This document shows, piece after piece, positions 161 through 6,575 of a stretch of 6,575 nucleotides of DNA. The stretch is taken from NCBI GenBank assembly GCA_002297865.1, contig DBKX01000156.1, positions 1-6,575 on the forward strand, read 5' to 3'. The notes beneath the pieces were generated by a model. The model saw nothing but the letters and a program-made list of their open reading frames with translations. It was not told the origin of the DNA and did not search any database. Origin of the DNA: Lachnoclostridium sp. UBA739 (GTDB lineage: Bacteria; Bacillota_A; Clostridia; Lachnospirales; Lachnospiraceae). Every line of letters begins with the position of its first letter. The first letter of the stretch is position 1. The position numbers and the translations under genes were made by a program.

Positions 161-1141
161 CTAATCTAAATAATTCATTAAAGTCATTTTTAAACTATTT
201 AATATATTCTTCTCTGACATAATAGCTAATTCACCATGTAAAATTATACGTTGTAGCAGAATCTTATCGTGTATCAGATTAAATTTTATACCAAGGCTTA
301 TGATCAAGCGATACTCATTCTTGATTGTTTGATAAGCTGTAATGAATTGAGTAAAATCATCTGTCTTTAGATAATTGTTTAACATTTCTAATCTGAAAAT
401 CATCAAATACTTATGTTCTTTAAACACACAGAATGGTCGCAAATCAACATGTTCTATTTCCTGGCCCTTTAATTTCTCTATCTCCTTTTCTTGTAGACTA
501 AATCCCGTATCTTTGACCCTGAATCGTTCCCCAAAATTTATTGTATTCGCTGAATCCATGTATTCTGTGAATAACTTATAAATGTTATCTATCCTTATCG
601 TATCATACCTATCCGATTCAAACTCAGTGGAAATGCAATGAATGTCTGTCAAATAAGTTTCTTCTGGAAGCCCCCAGTAAGCTTTTTCAACTTCTTCCAT
701 TGAACATTCGAACCTAGTATATTTCCCACCTATTATATTATCAGCACAAAGCAACACTTCTCGTTCCTCATCATAACCATAGACAAAAAACTCATGTGTA
801 TGACTATGATCCATTCCATAACTTTTAATATATAATCTATCCACATATAAAAATATGTAATAATTCATATCAATCATATCTTTAATAAGCTGAATAAGAT
901 TTTTATTGTATTTGTGTCCTAATATTTTTCTGCTTACTCTACTTACTGAAATATTAGGACAATTATATAGCACACTTCTATATGCTTCAAAAAAAACAAC
1001 TGGCTCAATTTTTCTTAATTGAATAAAATTATTACATATCCAATATTTCGCCTCATCAGTCAGTTTTAACACGGAAAATAGGTCGCCATATATCGGATAA
1101 CTATCAATACATGGTTCATACATTACTAGCTCTTTTCTCAC
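161..1141 (-). CDS. BtrH N-terminal-like (C39 papain-like fold) protein, possible acyltransferase
   Basis: The protein has 326 residues and starts with GTG at 1141; AGAGGAG lies 9 nt upstream. An in-frame ATG at 1123 is an alternative start. The recognisable part is the block around residues 95-155: a HSHTHEFFVYGYD segment (His116 to Asp124), then VLLCADNIIGGKY with Asp134, and an SMEEVEKAYW helix. This pattern is typical of BtrH N-terminal-like proteins found in Firmicute peptide and aminoglycoside clusters. BtrH itself transfers an acyl group from a carrier protein to an amino group. The second half (about 175-326) is helical-looking and I do not recognise it. The usual nucleophilic Cys in a DCxxxxLxxIL context is not obvious: the matching segment reads SYPIYGDLFSVL, with Cys11 nearby. 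It could be an acyltransferase with a shifted nucleophile, or a non-catalytic partner. There is no signal peptide or membrane segment. It lies 17 nt after the TS-like gene, last in the run. Confidence 0.6.
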   Translation of the reverse strand: MRKELVMYEPCIDSYPIYGDLFSVLKLTDEAKYWICNNFIQLRKIEPVVFFEAYRSVLYNCPNISVSRVSRKILGHKYNKNLIQLIKDMIDMNYYIFLYVDRLYIKSYGMDHSHTHEFFVYGYDEEREVLLCADNIIGGKYTRFECSMEEVEKAYWGLPEETYLTDIHCISTEFESDRYDTIRIDNIYKLFTEYMDSANTINFGERFRVKDTGFSLQEKEIEKLKGQEIEHVDLRPFCVFKEHKYLMIFRLEMLNNYLKTDDFTQFITAYQTIKNEYRLIISLGIKFNLIHDKILLQRIILHGELAIMSEKNILNSLKMTLMNYLD

Positions 1142-1150
1142 AATCTCTCA

Positions 1151-1157
1151 CTCCTCT
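1151..1157 (-). promoter_or_regulatory. Ribosome binding site supporting a GTG start for the BtrH-like gene
   Basis: AGAGGAG lies 9 nt before the GTG at 1141 and just past the TAA stop of the TS-like gene (1159-1161). This spacing favours the GTG over the ATG six codons later. Confidence 0.65.
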
Positions 1158-1158
1158 A

Positions 1159-2034
1159 TTATTGATAAATTCGCCTTTTTTTCTCAATAAGTACCTCAAC
1201 GAACGGATCCCAATAGGATTGAAGTTTGCTTTCCGTTAAAATGTCTCCATTATTCCTTAAAATACTTTCCACTTGTAACAATAACTCTATTTGTTCCTTC
1301 TCAATAGCCTCTTTTGGCATACTCATCATTGTATAGCTATCACACGAAAACTCATTCTGTAATTGTTCAAAAATGCTAAAATTATTCTCATAGATATGCA
1401 TACTGCCTACCATATGTGTATAGCTTCCAAGCTCAACGCCCATTTCTAAAGCAAGCATTTCCTGAAACAATGTAAAACTGAAGATATCATAAGGCATACC
1501 AAGATAGATATCATTAGAACGCATGTAAGTAATTGCATGAAGTTTTCCATCACGAATAAAATACTGCAAGTTACATGTACAGGGAATATCACGCGATGAG
1601 GTAAACAAATCCATTGGCTGGTAGATCGTAATAACAGCCTGTCTTGAATCGGAATCCTCATTCAATTTCTTCTTTATACTCTCCCACTGACTTGTTTTCC
1701 CCCCAAAGATTCTTGGTCCATAAGCTCCATGTACGGTTACTTGGTCATCAGAGAATTTTGGATACATACTACTGTAATATTTCATAATATCCAATTGATT
1801 GCTTCCTCTAAGATACCATAGAAATTCACCTACCGCAAAAGACGAACTTATTTTCCGTAAAGAATTTTTGACAACACGATCTCTTGGATTTGTGATAGTG
1901 AAGGCTACACCCAAACATTCCTTTACTTTCATTCCACGTGGCTTTGACTCTGGAGCTTTCTGTAACATGTTAATAAGATACAGATACGCTTCATTCACAC
2001 CCAAAAACGATAAATTATTCTTCATTCGATCCAT
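1159..2034 (-). CDS. Thymidylate-synthase-fold pyrimidine nucleotide hydroxymethylase (predicted CMP/dCMP type)
   Basis: This 291-residue protein has the thymidylate synthase fold; numbering is from the Met at 2034. Compared with E. coli TS it keeps the catalytic Cys (Cys152 in IPCTC), the following Gln (157), Arg172-Ser173, LGMP, and the ribose-contacting pair in SMHIY (His213, Tyr215). The residue equivalent to E. coli Asn177, which reads the uracil ring, is Asp183 (LGMPYDIF). Asp at this site is known from T4 dCMP hydroxymethylase and goes with cytosine recognition. The tryptophan-containing IWDEW segment of true TS is absent, and the second Arg of the DSRR motif is Gln. The likely reaction is transfer of a one-carbon unit from methylene-tetrahydrofolate to C5 of CMP or dCMP, giving the 5-hydroxymethyl nucleotide. 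The upstream SHMT-like gene fits as one-carbon supplier. A TS-like enzyme for dUMP is less likely. An ATG at 2043 is in frame but sits directly on the ribosome binding site. Confidence 0.85.
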   Translation of the reverse strand: MDRMKNNLSFLGVNEAYLYLINMLQKAPESKPRGMKVKECLGVAFTITNPRDRVVKNSLRKISSSFAVGEFLWYLRGSNQLDIMKYYSSMYPKFSDDQVTVHGAYGPRIFGGKTSQWESIKKKLNEDSDSRQAVITIYQPMDLFTSSRDIPCTCNLQYFIRDGKLHAITYMRSNDIYLGMPYDIFSFTLFQEMLALEMGVELGSYTHMVGSMHIYENNFSIFEQLQNEFSCDSYTMMSMPKEAIEKEQIELLLQVESILRNNGDILTESKLQSYWDPFVEVLIEKKRRIYQ

Positions 2035-2043
2035 ATAGTTCAT

Positions 2044-2050
2044 CTCCTCA
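2044..2050 (-). promoter_or_regulatory. Ribosome binding site that decides the TS-like gene start
   Basis: TGAGGAG abuts the ATG at 2043 with no spacer, which is too close for initiation there. The next in-frame ATG at 2034 is 9 nt from the GGAG, a normal distance. The protein therefore most likely begins MDRMKNN, three residues shorter than the longest frame. Confidence 0.7.
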
Positions 2051-2053
2051 CAT

Positions 2054-2080
2054 TTGTAATCACATTGCCTATTATTACAA
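2054..2080 (-). repeat. Inverted repeat in the leader of the TS-like gene
   Basis: On the minus strand TTGTAAT and ATTACAA form a perfect 7-bp inverted repeat around a 13-nt loop, in the largest gap between genes (58 nt) just before the ribosome binding site. It is AT-rich with no U-tract, so it is not a convincing terminator. It could be a weak RNA hairpin, an operator, or chance. Confidence 0.35.
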
Positions 2081-2092
2081 CTTATTGTTTAG

Positions 2093-3565
2093 TTAGTTTC
2101 GTTTAACTTTTCCGTTATAGGTTCGCGCGATAGTATCAACAATTTGAAACTCACTAGGGATTTTATATTTGCTCAGCTTGTTCTGACATTCCTGCTTAAC
2201 TTGTTCGATAACACTTTCCGTTTTCTGGACTACTACGATATCAGCTGCCACCTTTTCCCCTAATAAATCATCCGATATTCCATATACTTTTACGTCCTTA
2301 ACATCATTACAAGAAGAGATTACTTCTTCTACTTCTTCTGGACTTACATTTTGCCCTCCAGTAATAATAATGTTTTTCTTTCTCCCCACTATATATAAGT
2401 AGTTGTCTTCTGATATATAGCCCAAATCACCTGTATGTAACCATCCATTATGGATAATAGCCTGTGTCTCCTCGTAGCAACGAAAATACCCCTTCATCAT
2501 ACCTTTGCTCTTCACTATCACTTCGCCTTTTTCGCCATTAGGTAATGACATACCGGAATCATCAACAATCTTTATTTCAACTCCAGGTATTGCACAGCCA
2601 ACCGATCCTATCTTTTCTTTACAATATTCAGGTGGCAATGTAGTAACTCTAGGTCCTGCCTCTGTCAAACCATATGTTTGAACATAGGATATCGTAGGAT
2701 ACTTTTCGATCATCTCTCTCAAGTAATTTTCAGGTATCGCGCTTCCTCCGAAACAAATGACTCTTAAAGATGAGATATCAAAAGATAACTTCTTGCAACG
2801 AGCTAATGCGATTAGAATCGATGGAACGACCGTAAAATTAGTAATTTTCCATCTATCAACCAACTTAAAAAAATCAGCAGCCATAAATGGATATGGATTA
2901 ATAACAATACGTGCTCCTAAATATACATGAGTTAGAAATTGAGCAGTATTACAATAACCAAATACCATAGGCAACTGTATTAAGCAGACCTCATTCTCAG
3001 TAAAATTAAGAGATTCAGAATGTGCCTTGATATTATTTTGCAATCCCTCATTGGTCAGCATCACCCGTTTTGGTTTAGAGGTTGTTCCCGATGTATGGAG
3101 CATCACTACAACATCCTGCAGTTCATCCCCATATTGTTCATCATGGAATAGTGCTTGGAAATATTCTACCACTCTGCAAACTGTTCCGTCATGGTTCACA
3201 ACCACAATTGTCATAGGAATCCTATTTTCCTGAATGAGTACTTCCACTTCTTTTAGACTTTCTTCCTGTATCACAAGCGTCGAGAGGCTACAAAGATTAA
3301 TCGTATATAGCAGTTCATTCATTGTGCTTCCTGTATGAAACGGTACAATTACTTTGTTTGCATAAAGGCAAGCAAAATAGCTTACCACATATGCAATTCC
3401 ATTTGGCAAAAAGATTCCTACCAGCTTTCCCTTTACGTTTTTCAATGACTCATCACACAGCTTAGATGATAAATGATTCCATCGCCTATAACTAAGTTCA
3501 TGCTCACCACACACGACTGCTGTTTTATCAGAATGTTTAAGTCTTTCTAAAAAATCACGAACCAT
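2093..3565 (-). CDS. Stand-alone acyl-AMP ligase / acyl-CoA synthetase-like enzyme
   Basis: This 490-residue protein is a full-length member of the class I adenylate-forming superfamily, from the acyl/aryl-CoA ligase branch rather than the NRPS A-domain branch. Visible motifs are the P-loop TSGTTSKPKR (158-167), YGLTE (298-302), GWLHTGD (374-380), GRKKNIIITGGQNVSPEE (394-411) and the C-terminal RTYNGKVKR with catalytic Lys486. It should activate a carboxylic acid with ATP and pass the acyl group to CoA or to a carrier protein. The substrate cannot be read from the sequence. The P-loop is atypical: the usual TTGKPKG has Ser and Arg at the two glycine positions. Changes here can be tolerated in the family, but activity is not assured. 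It starts 16 nt after the NRPS stop, with AAAAGGGGAA 7 nt before the ATG, so it is almost certainly co-transcribed and probably supplies a second acyl building block or starter unit. Confidence 0.9.
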   Translation of the reverse strand: MVRDFLERLKHSDKTAVVCGEHELSYRRWNHLSSKLCDESLKNVKGKLVGIFLPNGIAYVVSYFACLYANKVIVPFHTGSTMNELLYTINLCSLSTLVIQEESLKEVEVLIQENRIPMTIVVVNHDGTVCRVVEYFQALFHDEQYGDELQDVVVMLHTSGTTSKPKRVMLTNEGLQNNIKAHSESLNFTENEVCLIQLPMVFGYCNTAQFLTHVYLGARIVINPYPFMAADFFKLVDRWKITNFTVVPSILIALARCKKLSFDISSLRVICFGGSAIPENYLREMIEKYPTISYVQTYGLTEAGPRVTTLPPEYCKEKIGSVGCAIPGVEIKIVDDSGMSLPNGEKGEVIVKSKGMMKGYFRCYEETQAIIHNGWLHTGDLGYISEDNYLYIVGRKKNIIITGGQNVSPEEVEEVISSCNDVKDVKVYGISDDLLGEKVAADIVVVQKTESVIEQVKQECQNKLSKYKIPSEFQIVDTIARTYNGKVKRN

Positions 3566-3581
3566 CTTGATTCCCCTTTTC

Positions 3582-5840
3582 TCAAATCATATTATGTAAA
3601 TACTCATCCACTAATTGAGTAATCCTTTTTCTATCAATCTTTCCGTTCGGCGTTACTGGCATTTCATTTGATAATACATAATAGGTTGGAATATAATTTT
3701 CAGGCAAACGTTCTTTTAAATATTCTACTAACTCATTTTCTGTTGGCATATCCTGATTAGGATCACATTCCACATAGACAACAATCTTCTTAAGCCTTTT
3801 CGGAACAAGTGCAACAACCCTCTTAACGGATTGGTAACCAACTAGACAATGTTCTATCTCTCCAAGTTCGATTCTGCTTCCGTTTATTTTTACTTGGAAA
3901 TCCATTCGACCTAACAATATTAGTTCTCCATCATCCCTTAAGTACGCTAAGTCCCCTGTCTTATAGATACGTTGCTCCTCTTCGGTCATCCATGGATTAT
4001 CAAAAAAACGTTCCTGAGTAGCCTGAGGATTAAGGTAATATCCCTCGCCTACTCCAACTCCCCCCAGATATAGTTCTCCGGGGATACCAATTGGCAATAA
4101 TTCTCTAAAACGATCTAATATATATGCCTTCTGATTAGCCATTGGTTTTCCATACGGAATGCTTTTCCAGTTAGCATCAACTTCGTTAATATAGTAAATC
4201 GTCGAATCCATTGATACTTCTGTAGCCCCACCAAGACTAATGATAACGGCTTTATCATTTAACTTTCTAAATCTATCAGGCAACGATACTGGTATCCAAT
4301 CCCCTCCTAGAAGAACAACACGAATCGTTTCTATGTTGTTCGTATTCCTATGCTGGCTGCATTTCAGTAAAACGTCCAAGAGGACTGGAACAGAATGCCA
4401 TATGGTAACTTGGTATTTTTTTATGAGCTCTAGCCAGTGGAATGGCTGTTTCTCCAATAGTGGATCTGGCAACACAATACTACTTCCTGCCATCATGCTT
4501 CCTAAAATGTCATAGGCACTCATATCAAAACTCACTGATGAAATAGCAAGTACTTTATCTTTGTCTCCAATCGAAAAACGAGTGTTAAAATCATGGAAGT
4601 TATTTACCCGTCCTTGATGATTTAAAAGTACTCCTTTTGGCTGTCCTGTTGAACCAGACGTGTAAATCACATAGCATGGATTCTTAGAGTCAATTGCTAA
4701 GTTCAGATTCTCTTCTGAATACTCTTTCAGTTCATTACCCTCTTTTGTAAGTCTAATCACATTAAGTCCTTCAAATATTTCTTCTTTCTCAACTTTTTCC
4801 ATTGTCATAACCACAGTAGAAACCTGGGAATTCTTCACTATATATTCAACTCTGGCACTAGGATAGGAGGAATCAATTGGAAGATATGCACATCCCGCCT
4901 TTAAAATTCCCATAATTCCAATGACAAAGCCAATCGACTTATTTGTATATAGTGCAATAACATCACCAGTCTTAGCTCCATTCATACGAAGATAATGGGC
5001 CAACTGATTTGCACGCTGGTTAAGCGTTAATCTTGTCATGGTCATTCCTTCGTAATACACGGCAACTGCTTGGGGATCTTCCTCTACCTTACACTCAAAA
5101 AGCTGATGCAGACAAGAATCGGACGGAAACTCCTGCTCTGTACGATTCCAGGTACCTGTTAATAGCTCCAGCTCCTCCTTACTTAAATAGTCGATTTCAC
5201 AGATTGGAAGTTCTGGATTCTCAATTGCACACTTCAGTATATTCTCATAATGCTGGGCAAACCGGCTAATAAACTCCTGTGTGAATACTGCCTCATTAAA
5301 AATAATAGTCTGGCATAATTTCTCCCCATCATCGACCAGTTCTAAGCATATATCAGTATGTATTCTATCCTGTATAAAAGAACTCTCACTATTTGAATAA
5401 ATGAATATGCAATTCCCCAGATCTACGATCTTACTCTTAATCTCCATCAGCATTTTCTCTGATATCGAATGTTTTTTTAATTCATTTTTACATACGGCCT
5501 GTATGTCCTGAATAGATAAATGCTTATCAAACTCTGGAACAGTAGTCATGTCAATGAGACGCTCATCCGTATCGATCATAAAACTGATTCCAGTTAATAT
5601 CTCATTCTGTGTATATTTTAGTAAAAGACTTAAGTATGCACTATAGAATAGGGTATAACGTTCTATTCGGCTGTCGGTCACTTTTTTCTCTAGGTTAATC
5701 GTCATCTGAAAGGATATAAATCTGCTTTCTTTTTCATTGGATATATCCTTTTTGTATATCTCAAACCTTCCCTCACAACGAGTATCAAATTCTTGTAGAA
5801 AGCTCTCCAACGAAAAATCCTTATACTCACTCATGTTCAT
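3582..5840 (-). CDS. NRPS protein: partial condensation domain plus adenylation domain, no carrier domain
   Basis: The protein has 752 residues. Residues ~40-215 match only the C-terminal lobe of a condensation domain; no HHxxxDG catalytic motif is present. Residues ~240-740 are a complete adenylation domain: A2 LKAGCAYLPID (313-323), A3 YTSGSTGQPKG (393-403), A4 SFDMS (437-441), A5 GGATE (537-541), A6 GELYLGG (588-594), A7 YKTGD (626-630), A8 around 644-662, and A10 NGKID with catalytic Lys734. It would activate an amino acid as aminoacyl-AMP and load a carrier in trans, because the protein ends 15 residues after the A10 motif, with no PCP (LGGxS) or thioesterase domain. My hand-aligned specificity code is D-M-Y-H-L-G-L-M-D-K (D439, M440, Y443, H482, L510, G512, L536, M544, D545, K734). 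It is closest to the serine code DVWHLSLIDK, so serine or a serine-like amino acid is likely. AGGAGAG lies 5 nt before the first ATG; the ATG at codon 3 is an alternative start. Confidence 0.93.
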   Translation of the reverse strand: MNMSEYKDFSLESFLQEFDTRCEGRFEIYKKDISNEKESRFISFQMTINLEKKVTDSRIERYTLFYSAYLSLLLKYTQNEILTGISFMIDTDERLIDMTTVPEFDKHLSIQDIQAVCKNELKKHSISEKMLMEIKSKIVDLGNCIFIYSNSESSFIQDRIHTDICLELVDDGEKLCQTIIFNEAVFTQEFISRFAQHYENILKCAIENPELPICEIDYLSKEELELLTGTWNRTEQEFPSDSCLHQLFECKVEEDPQAVAVYYEGMTMTRLTLNQRANQLAHYLRMNGAKTGDVIALYTNKSIGFVIGIMGILKAGCAYLPIDSSYPSARVEYIVKNSQVSTVVMTMEKVEKEEIFEGLNVIRLTKEGNELKEYSEENLNLAIDSKNPCYVIYTSGSTGQPKGVLLNHQGRVNNFHDFNTRFSIGDKDKVLAISSVSFDMSAYDILGSMMAGSSIVLPDPLLEKQPFHWLELIKKYQVTIWHSVPVLLDVLLKCSQHRNTNNIETIRVVLLGGDWIPVSLPDRFRKLNDKAVIISLGGATEVSMDSTIYYINEVDANWKSIPYGKPMANQKAYILDRFRELLPIGIPGELYLGGVGVGEGYYLNPQATQERFFDNPWMTEEEQRIYKTGDLAYLRDDGELILLGRMDFQVKINGSRIELGEIEHCLVGYQSVKRVVALVPKRLKKIVVYVECDPNQDMPTENELVEYLKERLPENYIPTYYVLSNEMPVTPNGKIDRKRITQLVDEYLHNMI

Positions 5841-5843
5841 TCA

Positions 5844-5850
5844 CTCTCCT
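5844..5850 (-). promoter_or_regulatory. Ribosome binding site of the NRPS gene
   Basis: AGGAGAG lies between the SHMT-like stop and the NRPS start. The AGGAG core is 5 nt from the ATG at 5840 and 11 nt from the second in-frame ATG at 5834, so both starts are possible and differ by only two residues. Confidence 0.65.
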
Positions 5851-5854
5851 AGCA

Positions 5855-6575
5855 TCAAAATTTGTCCTCGTACTGTGGTATAGGAAACTCCTTACATAAT
5901 TCCTTTACTTTTTTTAGTACGTCAGCCTTAACTGCCTCATCTACACTACATGTTTCTACAGAGTCCCCATGGACATGTGTCAATACTTCGTCAATTAAGT
6001 CTGCACACCTAATCATTGCACTTTCTGTCATTAATCTTTGTGATATGCTATTGGTTCCAATTCGGATTCCAGCTGGGTGTTTTGCTCCATTCGCTTTGCT
6101 AGTGTTAGGAACACTATTACGGTTCACAATAACACCACACTGCTCTAATACCCTTTCCGCAACATCACCTGTAATGCCTTTATTCGACAGATCTACAAGA
6201 ACGATATGGTTGTCGCTGCCACCTGAGATAATATTGTATCCTTTTTTCACTAAGCACTCTGATAATGTATGTGAATTATCAACAATACGCTGCATTATCT
6301 GTTTAAATTCCTCTGTACCAGCTTGTTCAAATGTAATCGCCTTAGCACCTATCTGATTCATAATCGGTGCTCCTTGGAAAAAGGGAAATACACCTTTCTG
6401 TAGTTTGCGCTCCAGCGTAATATCCTCGCCTTTTAGCTTTTCTTTCGCATCTTTTCCTGATAAAATAAGTCCTCCCCTAGGTCCGAATAACTGTTTATGT
6501 GTACATGTTGTTGTGATATGTGCATAGTCAATAGGTGATTCATGCAAGCCTGCGACCACTAATCCAGATATATGT
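5855..6575 (-). CDS. Serine hydroxymethyltransferase-family PLP enzyme, 5' end cut by the window edge
   Basis: This is the C-terminal part (about 239 residues; whole family members are about 410-430) of a fold-type I PLP enzyme of the SHMT family. The frame stays open to the right edge, reading HISGLVVAGLH, which matches the HIAGLVxAG block of SHMTs. The GTG at 6559 is therefore internal, not a start. The PLP lysine lies in TTTCTHKQLFGPRGG (Lys codon 6494-6496). The substrate-carboxylate arginine is retained in AGIRIGTNSISQR, as are SGGSDNHIVLVDL and VNRNSVPN. SHMTs convert serine plus tetrahydrofolate to glycine plus methylene-tetrahydrofolate in the cytoplasm. Divergence is visible in the usual FPGxQGGPxxH block, which reads FPFFQGAPIMN here. 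That fits a specialised copy, for example a methylene-THF supplier for the TS-like gene, an alpha-methylserine-type hydroxymethyltransferase, or a threonine transaldolase. The stop is 14 nt before the NRPS gene. The family call is secure; the substrate is not. Confidence 0.9.
   Translation of the reverse strand, partial: HISGLVVAGLHESPIDYAHITTTCTHKQLFGPRGGLILSGKDAKEKLKGEDITLERKLQKGVFPFFQGAPIMNQIGAKAITFEQAGTEEFKQIMQRIVDNSHTLSECLVKKGYNIISGGSDNHIVLVDLSNKGITGDVAERVLEQCGVIVNRNSVPNTSKANGAKHPAGIRIGTNSISQRLMTESAMIRCADLIDEVLTHVHGDSVETCSVDEAVKADVLKKVKELCKEFPIPQYEDKF

Follow-up and report, generated by a model that had tools for sequence, protein, structure and literature searches.

Amicetin, made by Streptomyces vinaceusdrappus, is described as a cytosine nucleoside joined to p-aminobenzoic acid (PABA) and a terminal α-methylserine unit (PMC7040171, PMC12856912), with two deoxysugars (PMC7040171). 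In MilA and BcmA, the enzymes of the thymidylate synthase (TS) fold from the mildiomycin and bacimethrin pathways, Lys133 and Ala176 are reported to give a preference for ribose, deoxyribose enzymes carry Arg and Ser at these positions, and Asp186 is a mark of cytosine substrates (PMC5175136). CcbD and CtaG are reported to take acyl groups from a carrier and couple them to amines (PMC12945683, PMC6772006). Here we analyse a 6.6-kb contig of Lachnoclostridium sp. UBA739 (DBKX01000156.1; its whole length of 6,575 nucleotides is called the window) carrying an operon for a serine hydroxymethyltransferase (SHMT)-like enzyme, a non-ribosomal peptide synthetase (NRPS) protein, an acyl-AMP ligase, a TS-fold enzyme and a protein of the BtrH fold. 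Judged by its sequence and that of its relatives, the window holds part of a real small-molecule biosynthetic gene cluster, and the predicted product class is an amicetin-like acylated pyrimidine (deoxy)nucleoside.

All five open reading frames (ORFs) are present and all lie on the minus strand. In transcription order they encode the SHMT, whose 5′ end is cut off, an NRPS protein with a condensation-domain C-lobe and an adenylation (A) domain, the acyl-AMP ligase, the TS-fold enzyme and the BtrH-fold protein (gene 5), with intergenic gaps of 14, 16, 49 and 17 bp. An initial annotation of this DNA had listed five closely spaced co-directional genes, and both its gene list and its coordinates were correct; the strand and the truncation of the SHMT are added here. 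A 24-row TS profile searched against 84,980 species genomes yielded 11 loci. The SHMT, NRPS, ligase and TS genes are collinear in three of them, at 54–70% identity: an Oscillospiraceae metagenome-assembled genome (L001), Paenibacillus sp. BJ-4 (L002) and Bacillus sp. FJAT-27264 (L003). The same three have a TS more than 60% identical to that of the window. Ruminococcaceae UBA5396 (L004) and Robertmurraya kyonggiensis (L005) retain the ligase and TS at 41–51% identity, with no SHMT match within the locus, and the remaining six loci share only the TS with the window operon. Because the order is kept in three of the 11 loci, the arrangement reflects more than chance; the initial annotation had proposed that an accidental grouping would show itself by missing neighbours in related genomes, and in L001–L003 the neighbours are kept.

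The orthologous loci also indicate what the short window is likely to lack. A Pfam scan of 16 of the 20 ORFs at the L002 locus (the NRPS, ligase, TS and glycosyltransferase family 2 (GT2) genes were omitted) found three discrete carrier proteins, an NTP_transf_5 protein, an APH-type kinase, a 512-aa alpha/beta hydrolase, a dTMP-kinase-like protein, a HAD phosphatase, a dCMP-deaminase-like protein, an ABC transporter and two radical SAM proteins, one with a sub-threshold B12-binding match. Three scanned ORFs, including a BtrH-like protein and a second TS, had no Pfam match. The GT2 glycosyltransferase was recognised by Pfam in L001 and its L002 counterpart by all-against-all comparison; L001 adds a carbamoyltransferase and, farther along, a phosphopantetheinyl transferase (PPTase). 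A discrete carrier protein gene sits directly upstream of the SHMT gene in the orthologous loci. The more distant L004/L017 and L005/L016 clusters likewise have a TS, a short second TS paralogue, the ligase, the hydrolase and GT2, along with APH kinase, dTMP-kinase-like, HAD and NTP_transf_5 genes. This conserved content supports the proposal, made in the initial annotation, that one-carbon, NRPS and nucleotide chemistry are combined here. Of the genes which that annotation had expected beyond the window, carrier proteins, a glycosyltransferase, a phosphatase and a transporter occur in the orthologous loci, and the 16 L002 ORFs scanned gave no match to the MilB-type N-glycosidase family.

The TS-fold enzyme (1159..2043, minus strand, 294 aa; Pfam Thymidylat_synt, 101 bits) is a predicted dCMP C5-hydroxymethylase. 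Its best match in the Protein Data Bank (PDB) is the CMP 5-hydroxymethylase MilA, at 165.6 bits against 81.5 for the best thymidylate synthase, and the catalytic Cys155 and Glu73 are conserved. At the positions that bear on substrate it has R134, S176 and D186, a signature of deoxyribose and cytosine, so that dCMP rather than CMP is the predicted substrate. We aligned 136 proteins (the window enzyme, MilA, 14 ORFs from the loci and, from 337 relatives, the best 120), and 128 share this combination; the eight exceptions are MilA and P0097 (K/A/D), P0034 (R/A/D), P0122, which is partial, and four of the short TS paralogues. As a control, the TS of L073, a plasmid of Streptomyces sp. 3211, has K/A/D and neighbours annotated as a nucleoside 2-deoxyribosyltransferase and a hydroxymethylpyrimidine (HMP) kinase, which supports the residue rule for sugar preference. 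L073 also holds a P450 and looks like a bacimethrin/mildiomycin-type cluster. Kinship with MilA leads us to infer hydroxymethylation over methylation. In a 74-row tree the window TS falls within a 29-row clade (support 100/99) apart from MilA, whose own placement is weakly supported, the bootstrap not having settled. The five related clusters examined each pair the full-length TS with a second, divergent TS paralogue of about 207 aa (copies at L002:15115-15738, L001:15088-15735, L016:4967-5593 and L017:8807-9448). Of the 14 active-site positions tabulated, 10 are different between the L002 copy and the window TS.

The SHMT-like pyridoxal phosphate (PLP) enzyme (5855..6574, minus strand, 239 aa; Pfam SHMT, 196 bits), a predicted synthase of an α-substituted serine, is present as its C-terminal half only, the 5′ end lying past the contig edge; its orthologues are 464–466 aa long. 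It is 67–70% identical to the L001–L003 copies, which keep the SHMT fold and most motifs and read NITAEG, TTTCTHK and QGAPxxN at the motif sites; 7qcw is the closest solved SHMT structure. In L001–L003 the canonical NKYAEGYP is replaced by NITAEGYP, which puts Thr at the Tyr55 position (counted on 4j5u; the equivalence to Tyr55 of S. thermophilus SHMT rests on position and motif). Five other SHMT copies, in genomes G001, G002 (two), G003 and G005, read NKYAEGYP, with Tyr55, and a search of G004 gave no SHMT match at 1e-20. Wild-type S. thermophilus SHMT, with Tyr55, is described as using Gly and, less well, D-Ala, and its Y55T variant as having raised D-Ser specificity and a wider range of donors by making room for an α substituent (PMC4761611, PMC6546723). 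Thr55, with the room it leaves, therefore supports an α-substituted serine without choosing between α-methyl and α-hydroxymethyl. We prefer α-methylserine because of the analogy with amicetin and with JBIR-34/35, whose FmoH and FmoA3 make and use α-methylserine. Thr55 is also found farther afield. The L002 SHMT has 250 matches among plasmid records, and the four examined of the ten listed (L069–L072) all have Thr55; at 1e-120, 396 actinobacterial genomes gave one further SHMT/A-domain pair, L075, again with Thr55. Among 398 Bacillota genomes, G003 was the sole SHMT match at 1e-115.

The adenylation domain points the same way. The NRPS protein (3582..5840, minus strand, 752 aa; Pfam AMP-binding, 270 bits) comprises this domain and a remnant of a condensation C-lobe, the Condensation match spanning only positions 378–455 of 456 (the last 78), and has no Pfam match to PP-binding and so no carrier domain. 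Its specificity code, DMYHLGLMDK, is identical in the window, L001, L002 and L003; in the window it is read from residues 439, 440, 443, 482, 510, 512, 536, 544, 545 and 734, which we take to be the motif positions of the code. The serine pocket of EntF reads DVWHFSLVDK; the L004 cluster, from a genome that gave no SHMT match, has DVWHYSLVDK in its first A-domain. The window code is thus not equal to the serine code: it differs from EntF at five of ten positions, three of them toward smaller residues, and retains the His/Asp pair. Four actinobacterial loci repeat the pairing of a Thr55 SHMT with an A-domain of the form DMYNxGxIHK (DMYNLGMIHK in both L069 and L070, DMYNMGLIHK in L071, DMYNFGMIHK in L075; for L069–L071 the code is that of the A-domain best matching the window's), and among the loci examined the DMY pocket occurs only beside a Thr55 SHMT. 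The L069 A-domain matches PDB entry 6lta at 382 bits; the entry is titled merely nonribosomal peptide synthetase, and we take it to be FmoA3. We therefore predict from its sequence that the domain has an altered serine pocket for an α-substituted serine, which, with the Thr55 SHMT, narrows the 'serine-like' unit proposed in the initial annotation.

The two remaining genes are probably concerned with acyl groups. The acyl-AMP/acyl-CoA ligase family enzyme (2093..3565, minus strand, 490 aa; Pfam AMP-binding, 236 bits) is found in all five related clusters, at 62–64% identity in L001–L003 and 41–42% in L004 and L005. Gene 5 (161..1141, minus strand, 326 aa) has no Pfam match at E 0.001, BtrH_N (PF14399) included, and scores only 21–27 bits against its distant paralogues in BJ-4. 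A profile built from gene 5 and those paralogues finds relatives named 'BtrH N-terminal domain-containing' and two, P0127 and P0149, that carry PF14399. An AlphaFold model from a 26-row alignment (pLDDT 90.8, superseding a five-sequence run at 51.8) matches AziU3, CcbD and CtaG almost from end to end. Compared as profiles, the family of gene 5, which lacks the helix 1 Cys, and eight other BtrH-like proteins match with 96% probability (E 2.3e-9), the N-terminal segment being unaligned; when the BtrH-like family was searched as a profile against the PDB, no protein of the BtrH fold came up, and the matches were weak ones to helical proteins (best E 0.006). By its model, gene 5 is thus BtrH-like in fold, with an indirect relationship to BtrH, and the initial assignment stands as to fold. 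His116 is kept, and the orthologous clusters encode a Cys-containing BtrH/CcbD-fold copy. The first 1,000 bases of the window, which hold most of gene 5, have a G+C fraction of 0.295, against 0.35–0.38 for the next five 1,000-base steps, which fits the idea that gene 5 is a variable addition to the operon.

Put together, these parts suggest a pathway. The dedicated SHMT would move a one-carbon unit onto D-Ala (or D-Ser) instead of Gly, giving α-methylserine (or α-hydroxymethylserine), which the free-standing A-domain would activate and load in trans onto a discrete carrier protein, while the acyl-AMP ligase would activate a second carboxylic acid. The TS-like enzyme would add a hydroxymethyl group, or less probably a methyl group, at C5 of dCMP, and the phosphatase and kinase enzymes would process the nucleotide. 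BtrH/CcbD-fold proteins might then transfer the carrier-bound acyl groups to amines (the base N4, an amino sugar or another amino acid), with the Cys-less copy of the window as a modified or non-catalytic partner, before glycosylation and export as the last stages. We put the joint reading of the sequences, an α-substituted serine (preferably α-methylserine) with a 5-hydroxymethyl-deoxycytidine-type nucleoside and a second acyl unit, at about an even chance; we are more confident that this is a biosynthetic cluster, and less so of the full structure. More tentatively still, and with the balance tilting against it, the family may represent a new class of peptidyl nucleosides on 5-hydroxymethyl-2′-deoxycytidine, bearing the α-substituted serine (again preferably α-methylserine) and a second acyl group. 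Stand-alone NRPS parts would assemble them together with condensing proteins of the BtrH fold, one of which has lost its nucleophile, and Paenibacillus-type strains and Oscillospiraceae would make them.

Several observations weigh against this reading. The Thr55 region lies outside the window and is read from the L001–L003 orthologues, and the window's own carrier proteins, kinases and transporter are likewise taken from orthologues. Since the wild-type SHMT, as described, already takes some D-Ala and the gain from Y55T was chiefly with D-Ser, Thr55 is not specific to α-methylserine. Other A-domains near the related clusters have different codes (DILQMGMIWK in L013, DGEAITMVCK for the second of L004, DYYPTTMRVK in L016), five other A-domain matches in L069–L071 also give different codes, and L072 has a Thr55 SHMT but the A-domain piece reached there reads GMVHIAVIEK, at 25% identity and without the DMY pocket. 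The TS clade contains no enzyme of known product or, in our set, of assayed substrate, and the enzyme may methylate instead. Neither gene 5 nor the rows aligned with it (mapped through alignment ranges) have a Cys at the start of helix 1, the nucleophile position, so ordinary BtrH/CcbD chemistry cannot be assumed, and the place of gene 5 is taken by an APH kinase in L001–L003. Finally, that the nucleoside forms part of the end product is itself something we infer. As a separate observation, L072 is a 28-kb Staphylococcus epidermidis plasmid (NZ_CP070059.1) on which the SHMT gene has genes for a carrier protein and for a DNA glycosylase of the YcaQ family on its two sides; an NRPS gene follows, and a PPTase gene is near.

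The same evidence bears on four other accounts. The SHMT might merely regenerate methylenetetrahydrofolate for the TS-like enzyme and supply glycine, with the A-domain taking Ser or Gly and the product a modified pyrimidine–amino acid that has no α-substituted serine. SHMT and TS do use a common cofactor, the SHMT fold and most motifs are retained, the A-domain has the His/Asp pair of EntF and L004, and the D-Ala activity described for the Tyr55 enzyme means that Thr55 is not proof. Even so, we consider this account unlikely: the cluster copies have Thr55 where each of the five other copies inspected has Tyr55, the DMY pocket was found, among the loci examined, only next to a Thr55 SHMT (L072 having Thr55 without it), and the pairing is repeated in NRPS loci of actinobacteria, L069 and L070 among them listing no TS gene nearby. 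A mildiomycin- or bacimethrin-type route, with hydroxymethylation of CMP, release of hydroxymethylcytosine by an N-glycosidase and joining of the base to a sugar and a serine, draws on MilA as the closest solved structure, on the conserved Asp186, Cys155 and Glu73, and on the glycosyltransferase and serine-related A-domain of the related clusters. R134/S176 in place of K/A makes it decidedly unlikely, as does the K/A/D signature of the Streptomyces sp. 3211 TS, which does have an annotated nucleoside 2-deoxyribosyltransferase as a neighbour; the 16 scanned L002 ORFs contain no match to that family.

A TS-like enzyme that is a plain dCMP/dUMP methylase, or comes from a recruited primary-metabolism gene separate from the NRPS chemistry, would fit the abundance of TS-fold genes in mobile elements (3238 of 50,697 phage and 196 of 72,556 plasmid records at E <= 1e-5). 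It seems very unlikely when the TS holds the same operon place in three genomes and recurs in two more distant clusters with the ligase, the hydrolase and the second TS paralogue, and when G002 and G003 have other TS matches elsewhere. We regard as highly improbable a DNA-base hypermodification system, as in some phages, in which hydroxymethyl-dCMP is phosphorylated, built into DNA and decorated with amino acids. Distant R/S/D relatives of the TS do adjoin aGPT-Pplase3/amino acid:DNA transferase genes (Pfam; L006 and L010) and the related clusters have a dTMP-kinase-like gene, but aGPT-Pplase/ADDT matches number zero among the 16 L002 ORFs, and the presence of discrete carrier proteins, a PPTase and ABC transporters suggests that the product is small and secreted.

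The preferred reading, an acylated deoxycytidine-type nucleoside, moves the closest parallel from mildiomycin to an amicetin-like logic with a deoxynucleotide-type enzyme. Of the parallels drawn in the initial annotation, amicetin proves the better one, and the comparison with mildiomycin and bacimethrin fails at the sugar; the 16 scanned L002 ORFs also gave no nucleoside 2-deoxyribosyltransferase match. The general idea of a product joining a hydroxymethylcytosine nucleoside or pyrimidine, a serine-like amino acid and an acyl group holds; the CMP-type enzyme it implied gives way to R134/S176/D186. The theme shared with amicetin, predicted here from genes alone, is a cytosine nucleoside with α-methylserine, although the amicetin host is a streptomycete and the window lineage belongs to Bacillota. 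The amicetin cluster contains an SHMT, an NRPS and an acyl ligase, and we know of no TS-like gene in it. With MilA and BcmA the window enzyme has in common the TS fold, the catalytic Cys155 and Glu, and Asp186, but it has R134/S176 (deoxyribose type) where they have K133/A176, and the MilB-type N-glycosidase of their pathways has no family match among the 16 L002 ORFs. Unlike the α-methylserine SHMT–NRPS modules of JBIR-34/35 and the similar ones of L069–L071 and L075, the A-domain protein of the window and L001–L003 stands alone, has a C-lobe remnant, lacks a carrier domain and adjoins nucleotide-modifying genes. Gene 5 shares the fold of BtrH, CcbD, CtaG and AziU3 and differs in the missing Cys at the start of helix 1. 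The initial annotation did not recognise the gene combination as a described cluster; titles and abstracts among the literature matches listed contain no description of it, and a targeted search, in which subscription journals were thinly covered, was empty.

The cluster family is rare within the genomes sampled. In the family of G003 the TS profile reached E <= 1e-60 in five of 295 genomes, with G002 and G003 alone below 1e-100, and in its phylum it reached 1e-70 in one of 398, which is G003 itself. The longest contig listed for the gene 5 protein (P0001) measures 6575 nucleotides, so the window is apparently a complete contig; P0006, a TS in the 90%-identity cluster of the window enzyme, occurs on eight contigs, the longest 42 kb. 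A plasmid home was considered and rejected: eight of 72,556 records match the operon, each over at most 3% of the query, and none covers most of it. A phage home was rejected likewise, phage TS matches all being below 60% identity to the window TS; 45 TS loci on viral contigs reach at most 47%.

Two further observations concern the wider set of loci. The Ruminococcaceae cluster variant encodes a glycyl radical enzyme (L017:3926-6779; PFL-like by Pfam), preceded by an ORF that resembles its activase by eye, and the enzyme has no match among the L002 ORFs scanned. The distant TS relatives of L006–L011 (36–40% identity), from six genomes of several phyla, lie in a cassette that looks shared by eye. 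It mostly includes a protein of ~265 aa that is DNA glycosylase-like by eye, one of ~310 aa that is an aGPT-Pplase3/amino acid:DNA transferase where tested (L006 and L010), and a convergently encoded protein with an M78 domain (Pfam, L006) that matches PADLOC PD-Lambda-2_B (L006 and L010). This cassette is possibly a chromosomal DNA-base hypermodification or defence module.

The cluster ties a dCMP-type TS family, otherwise one of phages and base-modification loci, to natural-product assembly. It also offers a candidate sequence rule, in which a Thr55 SHMT together with a DMYxxG A-domain pocket would predict α-substituted serine in non-ribosomal products, and its Cys-less BtrH-fold proteins raise a concrete question of mechanism. 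Paenibacillus sp. BJ-4 and Bacillus sp. FJAT-27264 are strains in which a new UV-absorbing nucleoside could be sought and, if the reading is true, it may be a new kind of antibiotic-like molecule.

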